A stretch of 64,000 nt of DNA from Pandoraea iniqua (GTDB lineage: Bacteria > Pseudomonadota > Gammaproteobacteria > Burkholderiales > Burkholderiaceae), in contig NZ_CABPSF010000004.1 in the NCBI RefSeq assembly GCF_902459685.1, positions 310,001 through 374,000 on the forward strand, given 5' to 3'. How positions within the stretch are numbered: position 1 is the first letter of the stretch; each line of letters begins with the position of its first letter. Shown here piece by piece: positions 45,645 through 58,386 of the stretch. Made by a program: the position numbers and the translations under genes. The notes below the pieces were generated by a model. The model was not told the DNA's origin and searched no databases. It saw only the letters and a program-made list of their open reading frames with translations.

Positions 45645-46349
45645 TTACGTTGCCGCGTTGCCGCGCTCGGTGGCGAGGTGCCGCTCAAGCAAGTCAATAT
45701 CTTCGCGCAACAGCTTGATCACCCCGGCGGCGCCGGGCTCGCCCGGTTGCCGCCCGGACTCCTGTTCGACCGTGCGCAATGCCATGTCGGCAATCTGTTC
45801 GGCGATCTCTTCGGCCTTGCGCGGGCCTGCGGGCGTGAACCACCATGCCGTCCAGTTGCACATGCCGATGATGGAAAACGCGGCGACCTTCGCATCCATC
45901 ACCCGGAACTGACCTCGCTCGATCCCCAGCTCGATGGCATGCCGGAACTGCTCCAGCACGGTGCGGCGGGACTGCTCGGCCAGCTTTTTCTGCTTGGGCG
46001 GCAGGTTGTCTTCATTGCGCTCGACAACACGAAATTGCAGCGGGTGCGTGAGGATCAGGTGCGCATGGCGCAGCACGAGATGGCGCAGCATCGCGGAGGG
46101 TTGCTGCAAGTTTTCCGGCAACGCCTCGGAGGCTAGTTCGCCCGCCGCGCGCGTGACCACCGTGGTGAGGACTTCGAGAATCGCTTCCTTACTCTTGAAG
46201 TAGTAATACAGCGCCGGCCGGCTGACGCCGACGACGTCGGCAATGTCGTTGAAACTCGTGCCGTCGAACCCGCGGTCGATGAAGAGTCGCGTGGCGACTT
46301 CCAGAATGTTTTCCCGCAACGCGTCGCTTTTGGTCTGTGCTTTGGTCAT
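45645..46349 (-). CDS. TetR-family regulator
   Basis: A 234-aa regulator with an N-terminal helix-turn-helix (SFNDIADVVGVSRPALYYYFKSKEAILEVL, residues about 30-60) and a ligand domain. The type recurs beside aromatic and acyl-CoA degradation genes. It is divergent from the operon starting at 46534, and the shared region holds AT-rich repeats centred on AGTAAA-N4-TTTACT. The ATG at 46349 is preferred over a GTG six bases upstream. It likely represses the operon until a CoA thioester or the substrate is present; this is inferred. Confidence 0.88.
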   Translation of the reverse strand: MTKAQTKSDALRENILEVATRLFIDRGFDGTSFNDIADVVGVSRPALYYYFKSKEAILEVLTTVVTRAAGELASEALPENLQQPSAMLRHLVLRHAHLILTHPLQFRVVERNEDNLPPKQKKLAEQSRRTVLEQFRHAIELGIERGQFRVMDAKVAAFSIIGMCNWTAWWFTPAGPRKAEEIAEQIADMALRTVEQESGRQPGEPGAAGVIKLLREDIDLLERHLATERGNAAT

Positions 46350-46451
46350 GGCCACTGTCTGGCGCGTCTTTTGACGCAGGCGTCAGAAAACCAACACCTT
46401 AACCAAATTCCCTTGCGGCGCAAAGCGCTGTGCCACGGTTGTTTACGGGTT

Positions 46452-46498
46452 TTTACTACATCGTCAATTTTCAGTAAAAATGTTTACTCATTCGTCAA
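46452..46498. promoter_or_regulatory. Operator region of the aromatic operon
   Basis: Two direct repeats TTTACTACATCGTCAA (46452-46467) and TTTACTCATTCGTCAA (46483-46498), 31 bases apart start to start (about three helical turns), with the palindrome AGTAAA-N4-TTTACT at 46473-46488 overlapping the second. A further TGACG-N4-CGTCA lies at 46372-46385. Candidate binding sites for the divergent TetR protein. Confidence 0.6.
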
Positions 46499-46533
46499 AA
46501 ATTAAACTAGTATGTAAAAAAAGGAGGTGGCAG

Positions 46534-47820
46534 ATGAGTCAACAGCAACAGGGTCGCGGCGACGGCCAAAGCGCGACCGCAGGGTTTCTGAACACGGATT
46601 GGAATCCGCGCGACCTGCCGCTGGGCGCGAGCACCCGCAACGTGGTGCTGCGCACCGGCGACGGTGCGGCGACGAGCGGGTCGCTCTACACCGCCGGGTC
46701 GCCCGATACGGTGGTCTGCATCATGCATCCGCGCGAATTCATGGCGTGCCATTACCTGATTCCGGACATCGTCGACGCAGGCTTCGCGGCGTGGACGCAG
46801 GCGCCGCGCTCGGTGGGCAACGACATGCGGCTCGAACACGAATTTGCGCTCTACGACGTGGCCGCCGGCATGCGCTTTTTGCGCGACGCGGGCTTCAAGC
46901 GCATCGTGCTGCTCGGCAATTCGGGCGGCAGCGGCCTTTACGCCCTTTATGTGCAGCAGTCGGGTCTGGCGCCGGACGCGCGCATCGAACGCACCCCCGG
47001 CGGGCGTCCGACGAAGCTGGCGTCGCTCGACATGCCGGTCGTCGACGGCATGGTGTTCGTGGCCCCCCATCCGGGGCAGGGCGCGTTGCTGCAAATGTGT
47101 ATCGACCCATCGGTTACCAACGAGCACGACGCGCTGTCGGTCGATCCGACGCTCGACCCGTTCGATCCGGCCAATGGTTTCGTGCCGCGACAACCCGGCA
47201 CTCCCGCGTCGTCACGTTACGACGCCGACTTCGTCACGCGCTACCGTGCAGCGCAAACCGCCCGCGTGGCCCGGCTCGACGCGATGGCCCGCGATCTGAT
47301 TGCCGCCCGCCAAGGCGCGCGCGAACGGATGAAGCGCGAAGGCGGCAGTGCCGACGGCACACTGCGCCGTATGGCCGCTCACACCCCGCTGATGACTGTT
47401 TGGCGTACCGACGCCGACCTGCGCTGCTTCGACCTGACGCTTGACCCTTCGGACCGTCGCTATGGCTCGTTGTGGGGCAGCGATCCGTTCGCATCGAATT
47501 ACGGATCGGTGGGTTTCGGGCGCGTCTGTTCGCCCGAAGCGTGGCTGTCGACGTGGTCGGGGCTGTCGTCGAACGCGCTGCTCTCGAAAACGGCGGCCGC
47601 CATCGTGCAGCCGACGCTGCTCATCGAATACACGGGCGATCAGGCGTGCTTCCCGAGTGTGATCGCGGACCTCTACGCGAGCCTCGGCACGACGCACAAG
47701 TCGCATCGGCGCGTGCGTGGCGACCACCATGGCCGCGCGCTCGCGCCTGAGGACGAAGCTGGGCGCTACGTCGCGGGACGCCTCTTGCAAGACTGGCTGC
47801 GCGAGACCTTTCCGCAATGA
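46534..47820 (+). CDS. Alpha/beta hydrolase family protein
   Basis: A 428-aa probable hydrolase. The nucleophile elbow is GNSGGSG (S130), preceded by the strand VVCIMHPREFM, with a likely catalytic Asp in IEYTGDQACFP and His in GDHHGRALAP near the C-terminus. A long insert (residues about 175-320) is rich in Arg and Asp and may form a lid. AAAGGAGGTGG gives an excellent ribosome site for the ATG at 46534. First gene of the TetR-controlled operon. In this setting it may hydrolyse a ring-cleavage product, but an ester- or amide-hydrolase role before ring attack is also possible. Confidence 0.75.
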   Translation: MSQQQQGRGDGQSATAGFLNTDWNPRDLPLGASTRNVVLRTGDGAATSGSLYTAGSPDTVVCIMHPREFMACHYLIPDIVDAGFAAWTQAPRSVGNDMRLEHEFALYDVAAGMRFLRDAGFKRIVLLGNSGGSGLYALYVQQSGLAPDARIERTPGGRPTKLASLDMPVVDGMVFVAPHPGQGALLQMCIDPSVTNEHDALSVDPTLDPFDPANGFVPRQPGTPASSRYDADFVTRYRAAQTARVARLDAMARDLIAARQGARERMKREGGSADGTLRRMAAHTPLMTVWRTDADLRCFDLTLDPSDRRYGSLWGSDPFASNYGSVGFGRVCSPEAWLSTWSGLSSNALLSKTAAAIVQPTLLIEYTGDQACFPSVIADLYASLGTTHKSHRRVRGDHHGRALAPEDEAGRYVAGRLLQDWLRETFPQ

Positions 47821-47877
47821 CGGCACCGATCACGCCTTTCTGGCCAACCTATTTACCCGACCTCCGGGAGACCCGAC

Positions 47878-48525
47878 ATGAAGTTGAATGACATCCCCGC
47901 TGCGGATCTTGCCTTGCGTCTGCATGGTGTCGATCACACCGCACGGCCGACGTGGCGCTTGCGCGAAACCGTCGAGTTTTATCGCGACGTGCTCGGCCTG
48001 CCGCTGATCCACACGATCTCCGCACGCGGCTGGGGGCCTGCTACGCACCCCGACTTTCTGCACTTCTTTTTCGATAGCGGCAACGGCAGCACCATCGCGT
48101 TTTTCTACTATCTCGGTAGTGACGAGCCCGCGGCGCTCGCTCGCCATCAGGGCAGCGCGCCGTTTCCCGACGATCACGTGTTCGACGCTACGCACACCGC
48201 ATGGCTGGTCGACACGCAAGCCGATCTGCACGCGTGGAAAGCCCGTCTGGAGGCGCGCGGTGTCGAGGTGTCGGCCGAGACAGCGCACGAAGTGATCGAG
48301 TCGATTTACTTCCGCGACCCGAATGGCTATTTCATCGAGATCACCCGGAAGTTGCGCGCGTTGGAGAGCATCGATGCCCGCGATGCTGCCGCCACGCTTG
48401 AGGCTGCGATGGAAATCGAAGACGAAGCCCGCGACGGGAGCGCACCATTCACGTGTATCGACGCCGTCTGGCTGCGCAAGGCGCAACGCCTGAATCAACG
48501 CCTGCGCGAGGAGCGTCAGTCATGA
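47878..48525 (+). CDS. VOC-family (glyoxalase/extradiol-dioxygenase fold) protein
   Basis: A 215-aa protein of the vicinal-oxygen-chelate fold. Likely metal ligands are H20 (LHGVDHTAR), H62 (FLHFFFD), H106 (ATHTAWLV) and E154 (GYFIEITRK), which spread over two beta-alpha-beta-beta-beta modules. The family includes glyoxalase I, extradiol dioxygenases and epimerases. After the VOC domain comes a 50-residue helical tail. In this operon no other ring-cleavage enzyme is present, so a dioxygenase role is possible but unproven. GGGAG precedes the ATG. It overlaps the next gene by four bases (ATGA). Confidence 0.8.
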   Translation: MKLNDIPAADLALRLHGVDHTARPTWRLRETVEFYRDVLGLPLIHTISARGWGPATHPDFLHFFFDSGNGSTIAFFYYLGSDEPAALARHQGSAPFPDDHVFDATHTAWLVDTQADLHAWKARLEARGVEVSAETAHEVIESIYFRDPNGYFIEITRKLRALESIDARDAAATLEAAMEIEDEARDGSAPFTCIDAVWLRKAQRLNQRLREERQS

Positions 48526-48779
48526 GCGCCCATCCGTTACAGATTTTCGTATTGAACGTGCTGGAATTCGCGTCGCTGATCGACGCGGCGCGGCGACTGC
48601 CTGAATGCCGTATCGAGGCGGCCGGCGACTACACGGTGATTGCCAGCGACGTGCCGATTGCGTTCGAGCGCCGGGCGCTGGGACTGAAGCCGGCCGTCTG
48701 GTATGGCCTTTTCACGGGCGGCCTCGACGGCCGGATCGATTACGAACGCGACATCGTGCGGATCGCTCCGCGCGCATAA
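48522..48779 (+). CDS. Hypothetical 85-aa operon protein
   Basis: A small acidic-to-neutral protein with no family I recognise: about two thirds strand-like (LQIFVLNVLEFASLIDAARRLPECRIEAAGDYTVIASDVPIAFERR). Starts inside the VOC stop (ATGA) and precedes the ligase by 28 bases, so it is clearly an operon member and conserved coding use makes it likely real. It could be an accessory subunit of the VOC enzyme or of the ligase; nothing in the sequence decides. Confidence 0.7.
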   Translation: MSAHPLQIFVLNVLEFASLIDAARRLPECRIEAAGDYTVIASDVPIAFERRALGLKPAVWYGLFTGGLDGRIDYERDIVRIAPRA

Positions 48780-48807
48780 GTTCGCGACAGACCATGCAGG
48801 AGACAGC

Positions 48808-50529
48808 ATGAGCGGTATTAATCACCGTATTTATCAGCGTATTGACGGCGTCACGTATTGCCCGCCCGAACTGGCGCAGCGATATTTCGCTTCGAACGCT
48901 TGGCGAGATACGACCCTTGGCGATGCGTTGCGGGCTACCGCCGCGCGTGTGCCGGATCGCCCCGCCTATCTCAGCGATGAGGCCACACTGACCTTTGCCG
49001 AGCTAGACGCGCGCAGCGAGCGGCTGGGCGCGGCGCTGATCGAGCTGGGCCTGCGACCCGGCGACCGCGCGATCTTCCAGATGGGCACGACAGTGGACAC
49101 GGTTGTCGCGCTGATGGGCGCCTACAAGGCGGGTGTGGTGCCGGTTTGTGCCGTGCCGCAATACCGCGAAGTCGAAATCGGCCAACTGGCGGCGCAGTCG
49201 GGCGCTCGTGGCTATTTCGTGCAGGCGGATTTTTCGAGCTTCGATCTCGTCGCGTTCGCACGTCAGATGATGGACCGGCACCCGTCGATCGAACACTTGC
49301 TGGTCGCCCGCGCAGCGAACGACAGCTTCGCGAGCACTGGCGCGCATGGCATCGAGCGACTGATCGATGCCATGCCGCTTGAACGAGCCCGTGCGGTGCT
49401 GTCCGACATTCGCATCGGCAGTGAAGACGTCTTGAGTTTTCAACTCTCGGGCGGCACGACGGGGGTGCCGAAGATCATCCCGCGCTTTCATGCGGAATAT
49501 CTAGGCCACTCGCTCGCGTGGATGCGCCACATCGGCATGACCGAGCACAGCCGCATGATCTGGTCGTTGCCACTGCTGCATAACGCGGGCCAGCTTTATG
49601 TGCTCGCGTCGACCGTTGCCACCGGCATGACGACTGTGCTGATGCCGCGCGTCGACATCGCCCGCATGCTCACGCTGATCGAAATGCATCGCGTCACGCA
49701 TGGCCTGTCGATCGGGCCGGTTGCGCCGCAGATGATCGCGTACAAGGACGTCGCCCGGCACGATCTGTCGTCGCTGGAACTGTTCGGCACGATGAGCCGC
49801 GCCGACTCGCTGGAAGACCATCTCGGCGTGCCTTGCTTCAATCTTTACGGCACGACCGAAGGCTTGCTCATGGGTGCCGGGGCAGGGTTGCCTGCTGCTG
49901 TTCGACACCACACGCAGGGCTTGTCGGGATGTGAGGACGACGAGATTCGCGTGCTGGTCCCGGGCACCGACTCGCCGGTAGATGAGGGCACGCCGGGTGA
50001 GTTGTGCTTCCGTGGGCCGTCGAGCCTGCGCGGGTATTACCACGCCCCTGAAGCGACGGCGCAGACGCTCACGCCGGACGGCTTTGTGCGCACCGGCGAC
50101 ATGGTGACGGCGCGCATCGTTGATGGTGTGCGTTGCTTCGCCTTCGAAGGACGCCTGCGTGACAACATCAATCGCGGCGGCGAGAAGATCGGCTGCGAGG
50201 AGGTCGAGGCGTTCGTGAGCCATCACCCTGCGGTGGCCGACGCCAAGCTGGTTGCCATGCCAGATCCGCTCTACGGCGAGAAGGGCTGTGTCTACCTGAT
50301 TCTTCGGCCCGGACATGCTGCGCCGACGGTGGTTGAGCTGGCGACGTTTCTCGTCGGGCACGGGCTGGCGAAGTTCAAGTGTCCGGAACGCATCGAGACG
50401 GTCGACGAGTTTCCCGTCACGCGGGTGGGGAAAGTCGACAAGGCCTCGCTGCGTGCGGCGATTGCGGGCCGCATTGCGTCGGAGTCTGCCGAGTCGACGG
50501 CCGCACATGCCGGAGAGGAGGGCAAATGA
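48808..50529 (+). CDS. AMP-dependent aryl-acid ligase (DhbE/SdgA-like)
   Basis: A 573-aa adenylate-forming ligase activating an aromatic acid with ATP and probably CoA. Visible: phosphate loop LSGGTTGVPK (213-222), LYGTTEG, FVRTGDMV, hinge FEGRLRDNINRGGEKIGCEEVE and the C-terminal catalytic Lys in TRVGKVDKASL. It is most like 2,3-dihydroxybenzoate-AMP ligases: in those, a His-Asn pair (H234-N235 in DhbE) contacts the aryl carboxylate and 2-hydroxyl, and here PLLHNAG keeps HN at about 258-259. That suits salicylate- or anthranilate-like acids. AGGAG precedes the ATG at 48808. Its stop overlaps the thioesterase start. Confidence 0.85.
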   Translation: MSGINHRIYQRIDGVTYCPPELAQRYFASNAWRDTTLGDALRATAARVPDRPAYLSDEATLTFAELDARSERLGAALIELGLRPGDRAIFQMGTTVDTVVALMGAYKAGVVPVCAVPQYREVEIGQLAAQSGARGYFVQADFSSFDLVAFARQMMDRHPSIEHLLVARAANDSFASTGAHGIERLIDAMPLERARAVLSDIRIGSEDVLSFQLSGGTTGVPKIIPRFHAEYLGHSLAWMRHIGMTEHSRMIWSLPLLHNAGQLYVLASTVATGMTTVLMPRVDIARMLTLIEMHRVTHGLSIGPVAPQMIAYKDVARHDLSSLELFGTMSRADSLEDHLGVPCFNLYGTTEGLLMGAGAGLPAAVRHHTQGLSGCEDDEIRVLVPGTDSPVDEGTPGELCFRGPSSLRGYYHAPEATAQTLTPDGFVRTGDMVTARIVDGVRCFAFEGRLRDNINRGGEKIGCEEVEAFVSHHPAVADAKLVAMPDPLYGEKGCVYLILRPGHAAPTVVELATFLVGHGLAKFKCPERIETVDEFPVTRVGKVDKASLRAAIAGRIASESAESTAAHAGEEGK

Positions 50530-51038
50530 TCAGCACCGAATACGTGTTGAGCGAGCAGCCCTTCGTCGTGCGCCGGCGGGTGCGCTGGGGCGAGTGCGAT
50601 CCGGCGGGCGTCGTCTACACCGCGACGTTCTCCGACTACGTCATCTCGGTCGCCGAGCTGTTCTACGGATCGCTCTTCGGCGGTACGCCGCAGGCCGTGA
50701 AGGATCGTCATGGTTTCGGCACGCCGACCCGTGCGCTCGAATTCGATTTCCGCCGCTCGCTATGGCCCGACGACACCTTCGACATCGGCGTTGAAGTCGA
50801 AGGTATCCGCACGCGCACTTTCACGTTACTGATGACCGCACGCAAGGCCGATGGCGAGATTGCATTCGTCGCGCGGCTTACGCCGGTCTGCATCCAGCGC
50901 GGCAAGCGCGAGTCCATCGAGATGCCAGCCGTATTGCGCGAGGCACTTGACCAATACCAAACGCGCTGCCGAACGAGCTGCCAAACGGGCTGCGAAGCGG
51001 CAGGCGCGACCACATTTGCGGGAGAACCGACCCCATGA
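50526..51038 (+). CDS. 4HBT-type acyl-CoA thioesterase
   Basis: A 170-aa hotdog-fold thioesterase. RVRWGECDPAGVVYTATFSDYV (residues about 16-37) is the 4-hydroxybenzoyl-CoA thioesterase signature with the catalytic Asp in GECDPAG. It would release the hydroxylated aryl acid from its CoA thioester after the monooxygenase step. The C-terminal 25 residues are Cys/Thr-rich (CRTSCQTGCEAAG) and outside the fold. It is coupled to both neighbours by ATGA overlaps. Confidence 0.88.
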   Translation: MISTEYVLSEQPFVVRRRVRWGECDPAGVVYTATFSDYVISVAELFYGSLFGGTPQAVKDRHGFGTPTRALEFDFRRSLWPDDTFDIGVEVEGIRTRTFTLLMTARKADGEIAFVARLTPVCIQRGKRESIEMPAVLREALDQYQTRCRTSCQTGCEAAGATTFAGEPTP

Positions 51039-51832
51039 CATCCACGAATTTCCGTAATTCCCACAGTTTTCGCATCGGCCAGATCGTGCCCAGCTCGAAC
51101 ACCACGATGGAGACTGAGATCCCCGCGATGCTGCGTGCACGCGAGCAGGTTTTGCCAGAGCGCTTCACGTTTCATTCGAGCCGCATGCGCATGCATCGCG
51201 TGGTGAAGGAAGAGCTCGAAGCGATGAACCGTGAAGGGTTGCGCTGCGCCGCCGAACTCGCCGACGCCCGCGTGGACGTGATGAGCACCGCGTGTCTGGT
51301 CGCCATCATGGCGATGGGGCCCGGCTACCACCGGCAGGTCGAGGAAGACCTGCGCCGCGTGGCGCGTGAAAACCACTGCGAGGCGGCGGTAATGACGTCG
51401 GCGGGCGCGCTCGTGGCCGGCCTGAAAACGCTAGGTGCTCGCAAGGTATCGCTGATGGCCCCGTATATGAAGCCGCTCACGCAGGCAGTGGTCGAGTACA
51501 TCGAGCACGAAGGTATCGAGGTGATCGACGCACTGTCGTTCGAGATTCCAGACAACTTGGAAGTCGGGCGCCGCGATCCGATGCAACTGCTCGACGACGT
51601 CAAGCGGTTGAACACGGCCAACGTGGATGCGGTGGTGCTGTCCGCCTGCGTGCAGATGCCGTCGCTGCCCGCAATTCAGGTCGCGCAGGACGCACTGGGC
51701 TTGCCCGTGACATCGACCGCCGTGAGTACCGTGCGTCAGATGCTCGATCACCTCGGGCTGGCCCCGGTGGTGCCGGACGCGGGTGCGCTGCTGGCAGGTG
51801 CCGATGCCAAGGCACGCGTGCGGATCGCTTGA
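51035..51832 (+). CDS. Maleate cis-trans isomerase
   Basis: A 265-aa enzyme of the Asp/Glu racemase fold. It begins with the maleate-isomerase signature IGQIVPSSNTTMETEIPAML (residues 14-33) and has both active-site cysteines: C87 (STACLVAIMAMG) and C205 (LSACVQMPSL). It would isomerise maleate to fumarate, which enters the TCA cycle. This reaction ends nicotinate and some gentisate routes in bacteria. Its presence predicts that the upstream pathway makes maleate or a maleamate-like product. An arylmalonate decarboxylase-like role is less likely. Confidence 0.88.
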   Translation: MTSTNFRNSHSFRIGQIVPSSNTTMETEIPAMLRAREQVLPERFTFHSSRMRMHRVVKEELEAMNREGLRCAAELADARVDVMSTACLVAIMAMGPGYHRQVEEDLRRVARENHCEAAVMTSAGALVAGLKTLGARKVSLMAPYMKPLTQAVVEYIEHEGIEVIDALSFEIPDNLEVGRRDPMQLLDDVKRLNTANVDAVVLSACVQMPSLPAIQVAQDALGLPVTSTAVSTVRQMLDHLGLAPVVPDAGALLAGADAKARVRIA

Positions 51833-51866
51833 TGCCACTGCTATCCCCAGAACAAAGGAGTTCATC

Positions 51867-53015
51867 ATGAAAATCGCCGTCATCGGTGGCGGGCCGGCGG
51901 GCCTGTACTTTTCGCTGTTGATGAAGCAGCGTCATCCGGAGGACGAGATCATCGTCCATGAGCGCAATGCCGCGCACGCCACTTATGGTTGGGGTGTCGT
52001 GTTCTCCGACATCGCGCTCGCGTTCCTGAAGGAAGCGGATGAGGCTTTCTTCCGTAAGTTCACGGCGCACCATACGCGCTGCGACTACATGGAAATCGTC
52101 CATCAGGGCGTGCCGGTGCGCCTGAGCAATAACCACTTCTCGCGTACGTCGCGCATCGACATGCTGCGCGTGCTGCAAGAAGCCTGCGCAGAGGCTGGCG
52201 TGGAGGTTCGCTACAACAGTCACATCACGGACCCCGCACAGTTGCCCGACGCTGACGTCGTGATTGCCGCCGATGGTGTGAACAGTGAAGTGCGCACGCG
52301 CATGGCCGAGCATTTCGCGCCGAGCTTCGACGAGCGCCGCAACAAGTTCGCGTGGTACGGCACTTCGCAGTTGTTCCACCCGGTGTCGCTCATCTTTCGC
52401 CAGACGCCGCATGGCGTGTTCATGGCGCATGCGTATCAATACAGCCCGGGGCACTCGACGTTTCTCGTTGAGGTGGATCCCGAGACGTGGCAGCGCTGCG
52501 GTCTCGATACCGCCACAGAGGACGAGAGCCGGGCGTTCTGCGAGCAGATTTTCGCCGACGATCTGGGCGGGCATGCGCTGCTGACGAACCGTTCCAACTG
52601 GTTTCAGGCACGTGTGGTCAGCAATGCGCGGTGGTCGCACGGCAACGTGGTGTTGCTCGGCGATGCGCTGCGCAGCGTGCATTTCTCGCTCGGGTCGGGA
52701 ACGCGTATGGCCATGCAGGACGCTATCGCGTTGTTCGAGGCGCTTTGTGCGAATCGCAACGATGTCCCTGCGGCATTTGCGGCGTTTGAGGAAAGCCGAC
52801 GCGGTGCGTCCGACCGCTTTCAGGATGCGGCGAGACGCAGTCTTGACTGGTACGAGTCGGTCGACAAGCGAATGCAGCTCGACCCGGTGAGCTTCGCCTA
52901 CGACTACATGCTTCGCACCGGACGCGTAAGTCACGAGGATCTGCGCCAGCGCGACCCGGCGTTCATCGCACAGGTGGAAGCGGTGAAGCCTTCGCTGCGC
53001 GAGCACGCGGCGTAG
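51867..53015 (+). CDS. FAD-dependent aromatic monooxygenase (salicylyl-CoA 5-hydroxylase-like)
   Basis: A 382-aa single-component flavoprotein hydroxylase. The FAD motif is VIGGGPAGLYFS (residues 5-16), NADPH/FAD motif DVVIAADGVNS and the GD motif VVLLGDALRSVHFSLGSGTRMAMQDA. Proteins of this type, without the tyrosine/phenol hydroxylase C-terminal domain, include salicylyl-CoA 5-hydroxylase (SdgC) and the N-terminal part of 2-aminobenzoyl-CoA monooxygenase. AAAGGAG precedes the ATG. Neighbouring ligase and thioesterase fit hydroxylation at the CoA-ester stage; direct assignment is inferred. Confidence 0.85.
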   Translation: MKIAVIGGGPAGLYFSLLMKQRHPEDEIIVHERNAAHATYGWGVVFSDIALAFLKEADEAFFRKFTAHHTRCDYMEIVHQGVPVRLSNNHFSRTSRIDMLRVLQEACAEAGVEVRYNSHITDPAQLPDADVVIAADGVNSEVRTRMAEHFAPSFDERRNKFAWYGTSQLFHPVSLIFRQTPHGVFMAHAYQYSPGHSTFLVEVDPETWQRCGLDTATEDESRAFCEQIFADDLGGHALLTNRSNWFQARVVSNARWSHGNVVLLGDALRSVHFSLGSGTRMAMQDAIALFEALCANRNDVPAAFAAFEESRRGASDRFQDAARRSLDWYESVDKRMQLDPVSFAYDYMLRTGRVSHEDLRQRDPAFIAQVEAVKPSLREHAA

Positions 53016-53084
53016 CAGGCAGGACAACCCCGAACCATCCAAAACAAGGCGCAGACAAGCGTCATATCAGGACAGGAGACATTC

Positions 53085-54473
53085 ATGGACAAGCACGACA
53101 CCCGGCAGGCGTCAGTCGACGTGCGGGACTTCATCAACGCGGCCCCCGTGTCGCGCTTTCAGATCATGATCAGCGTGATGTGTTTTCTGATCGTGGCGCT
53201 GGATGGTTTCGACATCGCGATCATCGGCTTCATTGCGCCGCATATTCGTGCGGAATGGCAGTTGTCGATGGCGTCGCTCGGGCCGTTGTTCAGCGCGGGA
53301 TTGCTGGGCCTGATGGTTGGGGCGTTCTGTAGCGGGCCGATGGCCGATCGCATTGGCCGCCGCCGGGTGTTGATACTGTCCGTGGCGTGGTTCGGTGCGG
53401 CGAGCGTCGGGGCGGCGCTCGCGCCGAACGTGACGTGGCTCATCGCGCTGCGTTTCCTGACGGGGCTGGGGCTCGGCGGCGCGATGCCGAATGCGATCAC
53501 GCTGACGTCGGAATTCAGTCCCGAGCGTCGCCGGGGCACGCTGCTCACGCTGATGTTCTGCGGCTTCTCGCTGGGGTCGGCGCTGGGCGGCGTGGTGACG
53601 GCGTATCTGGTGGCTGACTACGGCTGGCGCGGTGTGCTGGCGCTTGGCGGGCTGTTGCCGCTGGCGCTGGTGCCGGTGCTGTGGTTTACGCTGCCGGAGT
53701 CGGTGCGGTTTCTGGCGATCCGCCGCGGCACGCAGGCGCAGATCGCCGCGATTCTGAAGCGCGTGGCACCGGCTCGCGTGACGGCGGGGCAACAGTATTC
53801 GGCGTCGGATGACCGGCTGCCGGCGTCGCCGGTGGTGCAACTGTTTCACCGCGACTATCGCCGTGGGACGTTGCTGCTGTGGCTGGCGTTCTTCATGAGT
53901 TTGCTGTTGCTGTATCTGCTCATCAACTGGCTGCCGATTCTGGCCGAGCGTAGCGGGATGACGCTCAAGCAGGCGTCGATGTTTGGCGGGCTGTTGCAAG
54001 GCGGCGGGGTGTTGGGGGCGATCGTGCTGGGGCTGCTGATCGACCGGTTCCATCCGTACAAGGTGGTGGCGGTGGCGTATCTGCTGGGGGCCGTGTGTGT
54101 GGCGTCGCTGGCGGTGGCCGACAACGCTGTGTGGCTGGCGATCGGGATCTTCGTGACGGGGTTCTGCGTGAGCGGCTCGCAAGTCTGCGCGAACGTGATT
54201 GCGTCGGCGTATTACCCGACATCCAATCGTGCAACGGGGGTGGCGTGGGCGCTAGGCATCGGCCGCGTCGGCGCGGTGGCGGGATCGCTGGGCGGAGCGT
54301 TTTTGCTCGCCGCAGGGTGGAGCAACGCGGGGTTGTTCATGATTCTGGCGATTCCGGCGGCGCTGGCGGGGCTGGGGATCTGGCTGGCGGGGGCGAAGCG
54401 GGCGAGGGTGGTGGAGGTGGTGGATGTGGCGGCGGGCGGTGCGCCGGCGGACTTGGCAGCGAAGTCCGTGTAA
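53085..54473 (+). CDS. MFS transporter, aromatic acid:H+ symporter (AAHS) type
   Basis: A 462-aa, 12-helix inner-membrane permease. VALDGFDIAIIGFIAPHI is the AAHS (PcaK/BenK-like) signature in helix 1, motif A is GPMADRIGRRRVL, and FTLPESVRFLAIR is typical of the loop before the central region. These import benzoate, 4-hydroxybenzoate and related acids. AGGAG precedes the ATG. Last gene of the operon; it would bring in the aromatic substrate. Confidence 0.9.
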   Translation: MDKHDTRQASVDVRDFINAAPVSRFQIMISVMCFLIVALDGFDIAIIGFIAPHIRAEWQLSMASLGPLFSAGLLGLMVGAFCSGPMADRIGRRRVLILSVAWFGAASVGAALAPNVTWLIALRFLTGLGLGGAMPNAITLTSEFSPERRRGTLLTLMFCGFSLGSALGGVVTAYLVADYGWRGVLALGGLLPLALVPVLWFTLPESVRFLAIRRGTQAQIAAILKRVAPARVTAGQQYSASDDRLPASPVVQLFHRDYRRGTLLLWLAFFMSLLLLYLLINWLPILAERSGMTLKQASMFGGLLQGGGVLGAIVLGLLIDRFHPYKVVAVAYLLGAVCVASLAVADNAVWLAIGIFVTGFCVSGSQVCANVIASAYYPTSNRATGVAWALGIGRVGAVAGSLGGAFLLAAGWSNAGLFMILAIPAALAGLGIWLAGAKRARVVEVVDVAAGGAPADLAAKSV

Positions 54474-54642
54474 ATCGATGGGATCGTACTCGGGACGTTG
54501 GGATACTGGATACAGCCTAATATATACTCGCGATGGTCTTGTGCGATCTATCGCAGAACATCGGCTGCATTCTGTTGCAAGTCCGCTTTCGTCCAACCCT
54601 CATCCAACGTCTACTGTGAATACGGTCTCTGAATCTCCGGCG

Positions 54643-55317
54643 ATGCTGAGTAAATCGAGTCATCTTTTCGATCAGGTCCACGACCGTCTGTGGGACCTGA
54701 TCATCAAAGGTGAGGTCCAGCCGGGAGAGCGTCTGAAAGACGTGGAATGGGCGGGCAAGCTGGGGGTGAGCCGGACGCCGGTCAGAGAGGCGATGCGCAA
54801 GTTGCAGCAGGAGGGCGTTTTGCTGCCGCTGTCCGCTGGCGGTTATCAGGTGAAGAACGTCAGCAACCGCGACATGGAGGAGTTGTACACCTGCCGTGCC
54901 GCACTGGAGCAGTTGGCGACACTTGAAGCTTCGCGCAGGTTGACGCAGGCCGACGCCGACAATCTCACGCGTATTCTCGCGCTCACCGACGCGGCGCTTT
55001 CGCGCAATGAGATCGATGAAATCTTTCGGCTCAATAGCGAATTCCACAAGGCCATCTTCGAATTCGCCGCCAACAATCACCTGATTTTCCTCTGGGAATC
55101 GCTGAACAAACTGGTGCTGTTCTACCGCTCGGCGCTGTTAAACAAGGTGAAACAGCGTCCTGAGTTGTCTGACGCGTATCTGAAGCGGCTCGCCGCAAAG
55201 CAGGATGCGCATCGGAGCATCGTAAAAGCGATGGTGGAAAAACGGCATACGACGGCGGCGGAATTGATGGAAGCGCATGTGCTGGCGAGCATCCAAGAAC
55301 TGGCCCAGTCGTCGTAG
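54643..55317 (+). CDS. GntR-family regulator (FadR/VanR type)
   Basis: A 224-aa regulator with an N-terminal winged helix-turn-helix (VQPGERLKDVEWAGKLGVSRTPVREAMRKL) and an FCD ligand-binding domain (from about 80; HKAIFEFAANNHLIFLWESL). FCD sensors bind carboxylic acids. It follows the aromatic operon in the same direction after a 170-base gap that holds an AT-rich stretch (CCTAATATATACTC), likely its own promoter. It may be a second controller of the operon. The start at 54643 gives the usual short N-terminus; a GTG 27 bases upstream is the alternative. Confidence 0.88.
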   Translation: MLSKSSHLFDQVHDRLWDLIIKGEVQPGERLKDVEWAGKLGVSRTPVREAMRKLQQEGVLLPLSAGGYQVKNVSNRDMEELYTCRAALEQLATLEASRRLTQADADNLTRILALTDAALSRNEIDEIFRLNSEFHKAIFEFAANNHLIFLWESLNKLVLFYRSALLNKVKQRPELSDAYLKRLAAKQDAHRSIVKAMVEKRHTTAAELMEAHVLASIQELAQSS

Positions 55318-55402: not shown

Positions 55403-56845
55403 TCAGGCGACTTGTTTGACCATCTCTTCGACCACCTTCTTCGCGTCGCCGAACACCATCATCGTCTTGTCGAGATAGAACAGTTCGTTATCCAGCCCGG
55501 CGTAACCGGCGGCCATCGAACGCTTATTTACGATGATCGTCTTAGCCTTATAGGCTTCGAGAATCGGCATACCGGCAATCGGCGATTGCGGATCGTTCTT
55601 GGCCGCCGGGTTCACCACGTCGTTCGCGCCGAGCACGAGCACCACGTCCGTCTGACCGAATTCGCCGTTGATCTCGTCCATTTCCAGCACTTGATCGTAG
55701 GGGACTTCGGCTTCTGCGAGCAGCACGTTCATGTGACCCGGCATACGACCGGCCACCGGGTGAATGGCGTAGCGGACCTGCACACCTTTTTCGGTGAGCT
55801 TGTCAGTCAGTTCCTTGAGCGCATGCTGTGCGCGCGCCACGGCCAAGCCGTAGCCCGGCACGATCACGAGCGATTCGGCGTTGCTCATCAGGAACGCCGC
55901 GTCATCAGGCGAACCCGATTTCACCGGACGTTGCTGCTGTTCGCCGCCTGCGGCCGCAGCACCTGCCTGTGCGCCGAAGCCGCCGAGAATCACGTTGAAG
56001 AACGAGCGATTCATCGCCTTGCACATGATGTACGACAGAATCGCACCCGACGAGCCGACCAGCGAGCCCGCGATGATGAGCATCGGGTTATTCAGCGAGA
56101 AGCCGATACCGGCCGCGGCCCAGCCCGAGTACGAGTTCAGCATCGACACAACCACCGGCATGTCGGCGCCGCCGATCGGGATGATGATCAGCACACCCAG
56201 CACGAAGGCGATGGCGGCCATCAGGATGAACGGCAGCCAGCTTTGCGACAGGAAGAAGATCACGCCGAAGCCGAGCATGGCGATGGCGAGCAGCAGGTTG
56301 ATCGTGTGCTGCCCCGTGAACTGCACCGGTGCGCCCTGAAACAGGCGGAACTTGTACTTGCCCGAGAGCTTGCCGAAGGCGATGACCGAGCCCGAGAACG
56401 TGATCGCGCCGACGAACGTGCCGATGAACAGCTCGATACGGTTACCCGGCGGCAGCAATGTTTCACCGGCCGGCACGATGCCGAACGCGGCCGGTTCTGC
56501 AACGGCGGCCACTGCGATACAGACGGCGGCCAGACCGATCAGCGAGTGCATGGCTGCGACCAGTTCCGGCATCTTCGTCATCTCGACCTTGCGAGCAACG
56601 TATGCACCGATGCCGCCACCCACGACGAGACCCGCGAGGATCAGACCGAGGCCCGAATAGTTGCCGCCCGAGAGCCTGCGCAACTCGTAAATCAGGGCGA
56701 TCGTGGTGACGGCCGCGATGGCCATACCGATCATGCCGAACGCGTTACCGCGCCGCGCCATCTTCGGGTTCGACAGGCCCTTGAGCGCCTGAATGAAACA
56801 GATCGACGCGACCAGATAGAGCAACGTGACGAGATTCATGCTCAT
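55403..56845 (-). CDS. pntB: NAD(P) transhydrogenase subunit beta
   Basis: The NADP(H)-binding subunit of the proton-translocating transhydrogenase, which makes NADPH from NADH using the proton gradient; inner membrane. The 480-aa protein has about nine N-terminal helices and a C-terminal NADP domain with the [17 protein letters not shown] loop and [15 protein letters not shown]. Length is normal. It overlaps the preceding pntAB gene by four bases. A terminator hairpin follows. Confidence 0.96.
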
Positions 56846-57240
56846 TGCTTGTTCCCCTCAGCCGTGTCTACGGCCGCTTCGCTTAACGCGCCGCTATGCG
56901 GCGCATTAGCCTTCGACGAGGCTCCGCTCCGCTCCGCCTTAACAGGTGTTTTATCCTTCTTTTTGAACATCTCGAGCATGCGCTGCGTGACGAGGAAGCC
57001 CCCGAACACGTTCACCGCTGCCAGTGCCACCGCCACGACACCCATCGTCTTGCCCAGACCGCCTTCGGTCAGGCCAGCCGCGAGCATGGCACCCACGATC
57101 ACGATGGCCGAAATGGCATTCGTGACCGCCATCAGCGGCGTATGCAGCGCCGGTGTGACGTTCCACACCACGTGATAGCCGACGTACACCGCCAGCACGA
57201 AGATGATCAGATTGATCACCGTGTGATTGATCATTTCCAT
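56842..57240 (-). CDS. pntAB: NAD(P) transhydrogenase membrane subunit (alpha part 2)
   Basis: A 132-aa membrane subunit matching the C-terminal part of E. coli PntA, encoded separately. Three helices ([55 protein letters not shown]) are followed by a 40-residue charged tail. Split alpha subunits are usual in betaproteobacteria. It lies 15 bases after pntAA. Confidence 0.94.
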
Positions 57241-57255
57241 TCTTGTGTCTCCCCC

Positions 57256-58386
57256 TTAGGCGGCGCGCAGGACTTGGCCGTCGCGGCACATCAGGCACGC
57301 GGCGACGATGTCGTCGTTGGTATCGATGACGAGCTTGTTTTCCTTGTCGATCACCAACTTGAGGAAGTCGAGCACGTTGCGCGCATACAGGGCCGACGCG
57401 TCAGCCGCGACCATGCCAGCGAGGTTGGTGTAACCGGCAATCGTCACGCCGTGCACCTTCACGATCTCGTCGGCCACCGACAGCGGGCAATTGCCGCCGC
57501 CGTTGGCGCCACGCCCTGCGGCGAGGTCGATGATGACCGAGCCCGGCTTCATGGCTTTGACGGTGTCTTCTGCGATCAGCGTCGGCGCAGCACGGCCCGG
57601 GATCAACGCGGTGGAGATGACGATGTCCGCTTGCGTGAGACGCGTATGCACGAGCTGCGATTGACGTGCGAGCCAAGCCGCAGGCATCGGGCGGGCATAA
57701 CCGCCCACGCCCTTAGCGATCTCGCGTTCTTCATCGGTTTCGAACGGCACGTCGATGAACTTCGCGCCGAGCGATTCGATCTGTTCCCGAACCGCCGGAC
57801 GCACGTCCGACGCTTCGATCACCGCGCCCAGACGCTTGGCCGTAGCGATGGCCTGCAAGCCGGCAACGCCAGCGCCCAGCACGACGAGACGCGCGGCTTT
57901 GACCGTACCGGCCGCCGTCATCAGCATCGGCATGAAACGCTGATACAGATTGGCGGCCAGCATCGCAGCCTTATAGCCGGCAATGTTGGCCTGTGAAGAC
58001 AGCACGTCCATGCTTTGCGCACGCGTGGTGCGCGGCGCGGCTTCCAGTGCGAAGCCGATGATGCCGGCGGCCGCCATGCGGGCGTTGTTCTCGGCATCGA
58101 ACGGGTTGAGCATGCCGACCACGGCCGCGCCACGCGCGATCTGGCCGACTTCGGGAATCGACGGTGCGCGTACCTTCAGCACGAGTTCCGCGCCGAATGC
58201 GTCAGCTGCGCTACCGGTCGCGGCACCCGCAGCGACATACGCCGCATCGGGGACGCTGGCCGAATCGCCTGCACCTCGCTCTACGGTGACGCGATGCCCT
58301 GCGCCTACCAGCTTCTTCACCGTTTCCGGTGTGGCCGCGACACGGGATTCGCCGCCGACCGTCTCCTTCGGAATGCCAATATGCAT
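57256..58386 (-). CDS. pntAA: NAD(P) transhydrogenase subunit alpha part 1 (NAD-binding)
   Basis: The soluble NAD(H)-binding subunit, 376 aa. MHIGIPKE at the start is typical of the AlaDH/PntA superfamily. The Rossmann motif GAGVAGLQAIATAKRLGA, the RQDVR-like contact region and the mobile-loop stretch EDTVKAMKPGSVIIDLAAGRGANG are visible. First of three transhydrogenase genes, 42 bases downstream of the RidA-like gene. Confidence 0.95.
   Translation of the reverse strand: MHIGIPKETVGGESRVAATPETVKKLVGAGHRVTVERGAGDSASVPDAAYVAAGAATGSAADAFGAELVLKVRAPSIPEVGQIARGAAVVGMLNPFDAENNARMAAAGIIGFALEAAPRTTRAQSMDVLSSQANIAGYKAAMLAANLYQRFMPMLMTAAGTVKAARLVVLGAGVAGLQAIATAKRLGAVIEASDVRPAVREQIESLGAKFIDVPFETDEEREIAKGVGGYARPMPAAWLARQSQLVHTRLTQADIVISTALIPGRAAPTLIAEDTVKAMKPGSVIIDLAAGRGANGGGNCPLSVADEIVKVHGVTIAGYTNLAGMVAADASALYARNVLDFLKLVIDKENKLVIDTNDDIVAACLMCRDGQVLRAA

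Follow-up and report, generated by a model that had tools for sequence, protein, structure and literature searches.

A putative gentisate-type pathway with replaced lower enzymes encoded in an operon of Pandoraea iniqua

Introduction

The CoA-dependent salicylate–gentisate pathway is represented by sdgABCD of Streptomyces, with annotated examples among our numbered loci (L170, L171 and L081). The hbz gentisate pathway of Pseudomonas alcaligenes employs a maleylpyruvate hydrolase and a maleate hydratase. Here, a stretch of 64,000 nt from Pandoraea iniqua (hereafter the window; positions 310,001–374,000 of NZ_CABPSF010000004.1, assembly GCF_902459685.1) was analysed for an operon coding for an alpha/beta hydrolase (HYD), a VOC protein, a protein of 85 amino acids (p85), an aryl-acid ligase (LIG), a thioesterase (TE), a maleate cis-trans isomerase (MAI), an FAD monooxygenase (FMO) and a permease (MFS). 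Judged by its sequence, this operon is likely a self-contained route for a salicylate-like acid, which would proceed via VOC plus p85, HYD and MAI to fumarate. The ten genes of a first-pass annotation of the locus, which also counted a divergent TetR gene and a GntR gene, were all confirmed in position.

Comparison with described pathways

Like the sdg pathway, the operon comprises an aryl-acid ligase and an SdgC-type monooxygenase, and some sdg-type loci share the thioesterase as well. In contrast, VOC with p85, HYD and MAI take the place of the cupin gentisate dioxygenase, the maleylpyruvate isomerase and the FAH-type hydrolase; in agreement with the first-pass annotation, a domain search detected neither a cupin gentisate dioxygenase nor an FAH-type hydrolase among the ten proteins. 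A direct hydrolysis of maleylpyruvate to maleate, as in the hbz pathway, is proposed for the operon, but hbz relies on an FAH-type hydrolase and a LeuCD-type hydratase where the operon has an alpha/beta hydrolase and a cysteine isomerase. Similar to the nicotinate (nic) pathway, the operon ends in a maleate isomerase, whereas domains of the NicX or NicF type were absent from the ten proteins. It also differs from the 2-aminobenzoyl-CoA monooxygenase/reductase pathway, since FMO carries no OYE-type reductase fusion and no beta-oxidation genes are among the ten. The best explanation for these features is a pathway of the gentisate type in which the lower enzymes have been exchanged, widespread and undescribed in the open literature searched.

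Gene content, conservation, predicted folds, active-site residues and the VOC–p85 fusion are shown by the analysis; the substrate, each of the following reactions and their order are inferred. The aryl acid, ortho-hydroxylated or, less likely, ortho-aminated, would be taken up by MFS and converted by LIG via the acyl-AMP to its CoA thioester. FMO would then hydroxylate para to the ortho group, yielding gentisyl-CoA or an analogue, from which TE would release the free acid. VOC and p85, acting together as one non-cupin dioxygenase of the VOC fold, may cleave the ring between the carboxyl- and the ortho-hydroxyl-bearing carbons to a maleylpyruvate-type product. HYD is proposed to cut this beta-diketone directly, without prior isomerisation, releasing maleate and a 2-oxo acid such as pyruvate, and MAI would convert maleate to fumarate. 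The first-pass annotation had already suggested that an ortho-substituted aryl acid is degraded via CoA esters to fumarate, and the relatives of LIG, FMO and MAI argue for this.

Distribution of the gene module

Eighty loci, all distinct, were selected by HYD alone as the best 80 of at least 583 (ten were shorter than 18 kb), and the presence of the other genes was decided by score thresholds. VOC was found in 76 of them (72 within 4 kb), LIG in 76, p85 in 73, FMO in 71, MAI in 52 and TE in 41; VOC, LIG and FMO occurred all together with HYD in 69. The loci span Burkholderiaceae, Alcaligenaceae, Comamonadaceae, Pseudomonas, several Alphaproteobacteria and Actinomycetota. The module is thus a real one, present in Beta-, Alpha- and Gammaproteobacteria and in Actinomycetota, and the co-occurrence of the same genes across phyla is far beyond chance, as judged from recurrence without a formal null. 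Within the genus, 16 of 32 genomes contain a HYD relative; in the family it was found in 51 of 299 sampled genomes, including the same 16. The first-pass annotation had proposed a search for this gene order in other Burkholderiales; the module was found there and beyond, with a gene order that differs between groups, and this variation indicates that shared function, more than recent common descent, holds the genes together.

Two types of the module were distinguished, type A as in the window and type B as in Cupriavidus metallidurans CH34. Identities between the two modules amount to 37% for LIG and 40% for FMO, and to 56% for HYD, 57% for VOC and 68% for MAI, the upper part being more diverged than the lower part. 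Five genomes carry both types: G245 (L038; L053, L056), G285 (L039; L046, L052), G252 (L044; L058), Paraburkholderia sp. C35 (L094; L142) and Alcaligenaceae SAGV5 (L107; L146). Together, the more diverged upper part and the coexistence of both types suggest different substrates feeding one shared lower path. In L092, an A-type relative, TE is truly missing because the matches to LIG and MAI lie only about 20 bases apart. The mycobacterial loci L075 (M. avium plasmid pP7a), L152 and L154 contain HYD and a ligase, with the VOC gene about 10 kb away.

Proposed ring cleavage by VOC and p85

The VOC protein (47878..48525, plus strand) is the proposed catalytic part of a ring-cleavage dioxygenase. 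Its putative metal ligands H20, H106 and E154 are invariant in the 31 fused rows aligned, and an extradiol signature, PROSITE pattern PS00082, is present in the window protein and in all 31 fused rows. The best solved relative by sequence is PDB 9u42 (E 1.3e-13, 54 bits, residues 17–166), which was also the top match of the VOC model by Foldseek E-value and comes from Acinetobacter under the title homogentisate 1,2-dioxygenase. Gentisate has homogentisate as its phenylacetate analogue. A gene of the A. baumannii cluster fahA-maiA-VOC-IclR-hppD (L173 7007–7432) shares 95% identity with the 9u42 sequence; it occupies the position in which the usual cupin enzyme would be expected. The module VOC shares with 9u42 the VOC fold, the extradiol signature and a proposed 2,5-dihydroxy acid as substrate. 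In contrast, genes of the 9u42 type code for about 180 aa, were not found with p85 and have fahA and maiA as partners in Acinetobacter. Papers describing the module, a gentisate dioxygenase of the VOC fold or the study behind 9u42 were not found in the open literature, outside of which subscription journals mostly lie.

Protein p85 (48522..48779, plus strand), without match in Pfam or NCBIfam, corresponds to the C-terminal part of the VOC protein in fused loci. A survey of fusions covered 123 loci with a VOC match, 113 of them with a p85 match; like the FMO tree, the first count of ligase rows and some counts of active-site residues given below, it includes some loci twice (e.g. L034/L089, L051/L123 and L061/L138). 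Both proteins were fused in 69 of the 113 loci; in the other 44 their genes are separate, lying within 1.3 kb of each other in the same orientation. Ten loci had no p85 match, but in two of these (including L075) a gene for 80 aa does follow VOC. The fused protein was predicted with confidence (pLDDT 92.4, pTM 0.90); a single VOC domain is followed by two helices and a strand-helix-strands unit. Comparison of p85 with VOC half-domains in hhalign gave probabilities of at most 4.3%, and the control, two VOC halves against each other, was likewise unmatched. Because of the fusion, the same-strand proximity when split and the confident fused model, p85 is best read as the predicted second part of a VOC ring-cleavage enzyme. 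By sequence, the ring-opening step would very probably sit inside the operon, as VOC plus p85. The first-pass annotation had concluded from the missing cupin dioxygenase and fumarylpyruvate hydrolase that ring opening must differ or lie elsewhere; the cupin is indeed missing from the set, whereas the enzymes for opening and splitting the ring (VOC plus p85, and HYD) are very probably encoded in the operon itself.

Proposed splitting of the opened ring

Sequence searches of Pfam, NCBIfam and PDB gave no match for HYD (46534..47820, plus strand, 428 aa), the proposed C-C hydrolase, and thus none to a described C-C hydrolase family. Its model is a confident alpha/beta hydrolase (pLDDT 93.5; best VIA Z 22.8), and the putative Ser-Asp-His triad S130, D369 and H398 (127, 366 and 395 in A3 numbering) is invariant in 60 of 60 rows. 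Distant relatives of HYD adjoin 9u42-like VOC genes (40–52% identity) in Cupriavidus necator N-1, Variovorax and Bosea (L085, L083, L066, L067 and L177), a pairing that possibly represents a homogentisate version of the same short cut. Another distant relative lies behind a cupin weakly matching the HmgA model (L084; 57 bits, cut-off 511). This company of ring-cleavage-type genes with two unrelated folds points to the hydrolysis of a ring-cleavage product by HYD, and with MAI in the same operon maleate is the simplest product; HYD probably cuts the opened ring to maleate.

MAI (51035..51832, plus strand) belongs by sequence to the family of the maleate isomerases Iso from Pseudomonas putida S16 (PDB 4fq7, 282 bits) and 2xec from Nocardia. 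Both catalytic cysteines, C87 and C205, are retained in 87 of 87 rows. Unlike MAI, 4fq7 and 2xec were described from nicotinate-type routes. In L121, where MAI was not found, LeuCD-like genes were considered as a substitute; this is not claimed, as their scores exceed the cut-offs of ordinary leucine-biosynthesis models. The window's genome (G000) encodes a second maleate isomerase with 60% identity (L065, contig 3, about 240000–259900), in a cluster of nicotinate-like appearance with an FAD monooxygenase, an alpha/beta hydrolase and a large molybdenum-hydroxylase-like gene.

Upper part of the pathway and substrate

LIG (48808..50529, plus strand) has the salicylate-AMP ligase 5wm2 as best PDB match (302 bits), and the nearest solved relatives of the B-type ligase of CH34 are likewise salicylate-AMP ligases. 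The HN substrate pair reported in the first-pass annotation is present throughout the type, with H and N each in 45 of 45 A-type rows. Further pocket positions are numbered after DhbE Y236 and S240. The former is Ala in 45 of 45 A-type rows; the latter is Ser in DhbE and Cys in the salicylate-AMP ligases 5wm2 and PchD. A first count at S240 comprised 45 A-type rows, 52 other proteobacterial rows (47 with Cys) and 15 actinobacterial rows (12 with Cys). Three of the 52 (L081, L083 and L145) are not clear module ligases and were omitted from the recount of distinct sequences, in which the A-type ligases had Tyr in 42 of 42, that of the window included, and the B-type and other proteobacterial module ligases had Cys in 44 of 47 (exceptions L102, L127 and L136). 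Distinct actinobacterial ligases again had Cys in 12 of 15, the exceptions being L077, L079 and L149. Because the pocket of the A-type ligases (H, N, A, Y) is remodelled in the same way throughout the group, salicylate itself is not the first choice for the window, and by sequence the substrate of the operon is probably an analogue of it. Provided that maleate itself is what MAI converts, positions 3 and 4 of the ring should carry no substituent, while one at position 6 would pass into the 2-oxo acid; salicylates substituted at position 6 would therefore be reasonable candidates. The proposal in the first-pass annotation of a substrate resembling 2-hydroxy- or 2-aminobenzoate remains plausible as a class, tempered by the unusual A-type pocket and, for type B, by the case against anthranilate given below.

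FMO (51867..53015, plus strand, 382 aa) was assigned by model and PDB matches to the SdgC/VioD kind of FAD monooxygenases, VioD also being a relative. It reached 417 bits over the N-terminal half of the PRK08255 salicylyl-CoA 5-hydroxylase model, below the cut-off of 1078 because the model covers a two-domain protein of which the reductase half is missing here; only the first half of the 768 model positions is matched. Stand-alone FMO relatives reside with gentisate-dioxygenase-like cupins, in L081 with one above the cut-off of 442 (461 bits) and in L080, L170 and L171 with cupin genes below it (226–266 bits). FAH-type hydrolases are found in all four loci and a thioesterase in L081 and L171. 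The proximity of FMO relatives to genes of the gentisate dioxygenase type suggests the same upper path with a different lower path. In a tree of 112 FMO rows calculated with a quick method, the monooxygenases of these four gentisate clusters fell on the B-type side; the fork had a support of 81, was drawn open and has long branches, and is taken as consistent only. TE (50526..51038, plus strand) was identified by a domain match as a 4HBT_2 thioesterase, and MFS (53085..54473, plus strand) resembles aromatic acid:H+ symporters of the AAHS family, with 398 bits to TIGR00895 (cut-off 419) and 415 bits to the PcaK model (cut-off 770).

Possible self-sufficiency of the module and the case of C. metallidurans CH34

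A canonical gentisate dioxygenase, a maleate isomerase relative and VOC were looked for in 45 of the 51 family genomes with a HYD match; the six omitted contained only distant HYD relatives. VOC and a maleate isomerase relative were each present in all 45. A canonical gentisate dioxygenase above the cut-off was found in 35 and at 269–330 bits in three more. Seven of the 45 have no credible one (G030, G186, G191, G233, G269, G275 and G295): five lack any match, and the other two, G191 (19 bits) and G269 (29 bits), were placed in the same class.

One of the seven, G275, is C. metallidurans CH34 with its B-type module. Its genome also contains no credible salicylate 1-hydroxylase (best match 33 bits) or 3-hydroxybenzoate 6-hydroxylase (46 bits). 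A study on this strain scores growth on salicylate as +++ and growth on anthranilate as negative, and reports that for salicylate and several further compounds no orthologues of known degradation pathways were found (PMC8879955). The B-type module is a direct candidate for the salicylate growth of CH34, as a lead and not as proof, and anthranilate is disfavoured as B-type substrate because the strain did not grow on it.

The window's genome has one canonical gentisate dioxygenase, above the cut-off with 586 bits, on another contig (L168, contig 1, about 889000–908000), near a 3-hydroxybenzoate 6-hydroxylase (700 bits) and a permease-like gene. This cluster is an ordinary 3-hydroxybenzoate route of that genome.

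Alternative explanations

Several observations weigh against a self-contained route of this kind. For the VOC protein, superposition of its model on 9u42 in Foldseek was poor (TM 0.25/0.39, rmsd 19.4) despite the best E-value, and the module VOC rows listed are only about 28–36% identical to 9u42. VIA ranked methylmalonyl-CoA epimerases, GLOD4 and BphC level for the VOC domain (Z 11–12), 9u42 being absent from the 50 VIA rows examined. The fold matches of HYD are general esterases and lipases, which name no reaction, and its triad His drops out of the invariant list once distant relatives are aligned. The A-type ligase pocket, with Tyr and not Cys at DhbE S240, is unlike that of salicylate-AMP ligases. 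Of the 80 loci, 28 gave no MAI match and 39 no TE match. Hydantoinase-type genes, for which the scheme has no place, are frequent in actinobacterial modules: large genes of the hydantoinase A/B kind occur in L149, L155, L158, L160, L161, L163, L164 and L167, one such actinobacterial gene being nearest to the caprolactamase alpha model and one matching Hydantoinase_B. The salicylate growth of CH34 is a lead only, because the same study also describes unexplained growth on 3-hydroxybenzoate and others (PMC8879955). Lastly, the canonical gentisate dioxygenase and the second maleate isomerase elsewhere in the window's genome would make the operon an addition in this organism.

An ortho-amino substrate such as anthranilate is unlikely. 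It would be converted to 5-hydroxyanthraniloyl-CoA, the freed ring opened to an amide, and the nitrogen removed by HYD or by the actinobacterial hydantoinase-type genes before maleate is formed. The FMO family, which includes the 2-aminobenzoyl-CoA monooxygenase kind (PRK08255 model; contexts L169 and L172), and the caprolactamase-like affiliation of hydantoinase-type genes in several actinobacterial clusters fit such a route. However, the domain search revealed no amidase-type gene among the ten proteins, the stand-alone FMO relatives keep company with gentisate-dioxygenase-like genes, and the B-type strain CH34 did not grow on anthranilate (PMC8879955), which bears on type B and not on type A. 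A pyridine acid, for instance 3-hydroxypicolinate, as substrate is quite unlikely: HYD would then act as an amidase on N-oxalyl-maleamate, with maleate arising as in nicotinate breakdown. Maleate isomerases are typical of nicotinate routes and the LIG family also activates 3-hydroxypicolinate, and the family name of HYD does not fix the type of bond cleaved; yet dioxygenase and amidohydrolase domains of the nicotinate type were not found among the ten proteins, and the distant HYD relatives lie beside homogentisate-dioxygenase-like genes and not beside pyridine genes.

Production of gentisate alone, with ring opening by a canonical dioxygenase elsewhere and a side job for VOC, p85 and HYD, could draw on the dioxygenase near the 3-hydroxybenzoate 6-hydroxylase in the window's genome and on those in most other module genomes. 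It is very unlikely in view of the seven genomes without a credible canonical enzyme and of the 76 of 80 loci in which VOC goes with HYD; moreover, MAI would be left without a clear role because the canonical route runs via fumarylpyruvate. A catechol-type meta cleavage by VOC, followed by HYD as an ordinary hydrolase of meta-cleavage products, agrees with the extradiol signature and with the fit of VOC to domains of BphC and of catechol 2,3-dioxygenase (VIA Z about 11). It is nonetheless highly improbable, since the best sequence match of VOC is a homogentisate enzyme, SdgC-type monooxygenases hydroxylate para and not ortho to the directing group, and a meta route does not give maleate.

Gene organization and regulation

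A strong Shine-Dalgarno sequence precedes the HYD start at 46534. The first-pass annotation described mostly ATGA overlaps between the genes; of the seven junctions between HYD and MFS, only three are overlaps (4 bases each), the other four being gaps of 57, 28, 34 and 69 bases. It also placed the GntR gene (54643..55317) in the operon. This gene is not counted as a module member here, because it lies 169 bases past the permease, beyond the stretch of DNA common to this locus and its two closest relatives; this stretch stops inside the permease gene at window positions 54415 (L054) and 54451 (L055). Neither of these two loci has a GntR match above the 60-bit cut. Further downstream, at 55403–58386 on the minus strand, open reading frames resembling NAD(P) transhydrogenase subunits were recognised by eye; they are unrelated to the operon.

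The TetR-family regulator (45645..46355, minus strand) is divergently encoded, with a GTG start at 46355 and an ATG two codons on, and contains the Pfam domains TetR_N and TetR_C_24. It would probably keep the operon repressed as long as neither substrate nor CoA ester is present. The gap between TetR and HYD holds a palindrome, TGACGC-AG-GCGTCA (46372..46385), as candidate TetR operator, whose GACG and GTC letters are conserved in nine of nine aligned sequences, and two copies of TTTAC-N6-GTCAA (46452 and 46483, spanning 46452..46498) as candidate operators upstream of HYD. Many module loci carry a TetR relative inside or beside them. A promoter scan returned no sigma-70 sites, and five terminator-like sites were observed versus 8.9 expected in shuffles.

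Significance

Taken as a whole, the evidence tips slightly in favour of a complete second gentisate-type pathway in which the three classical lower enzymes are replaced by unrelated ones (VOC plus p85, an alpha/beta C-C hydrolase and a maleate isomerase), spread over Proteobacteria and Actinomycetota, combined with two or more upper parts, A and B among them, that serve different ortho-substituted acids, and which would explain the salicylate growth of CH34. If true, a function would be assigned to three widespread groups presently named 'alpha/beta hydrolase', 'VOC family protein' and 'hypothetical protein', the enzymes that open the ring of 2,5-dihydroxy acids would gain a new type, and the stated open question of how CH34 grows on salicylate would become testable. 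Salicylate is a plant defence hormone, and the route would thus bear on soil and root bacteria.

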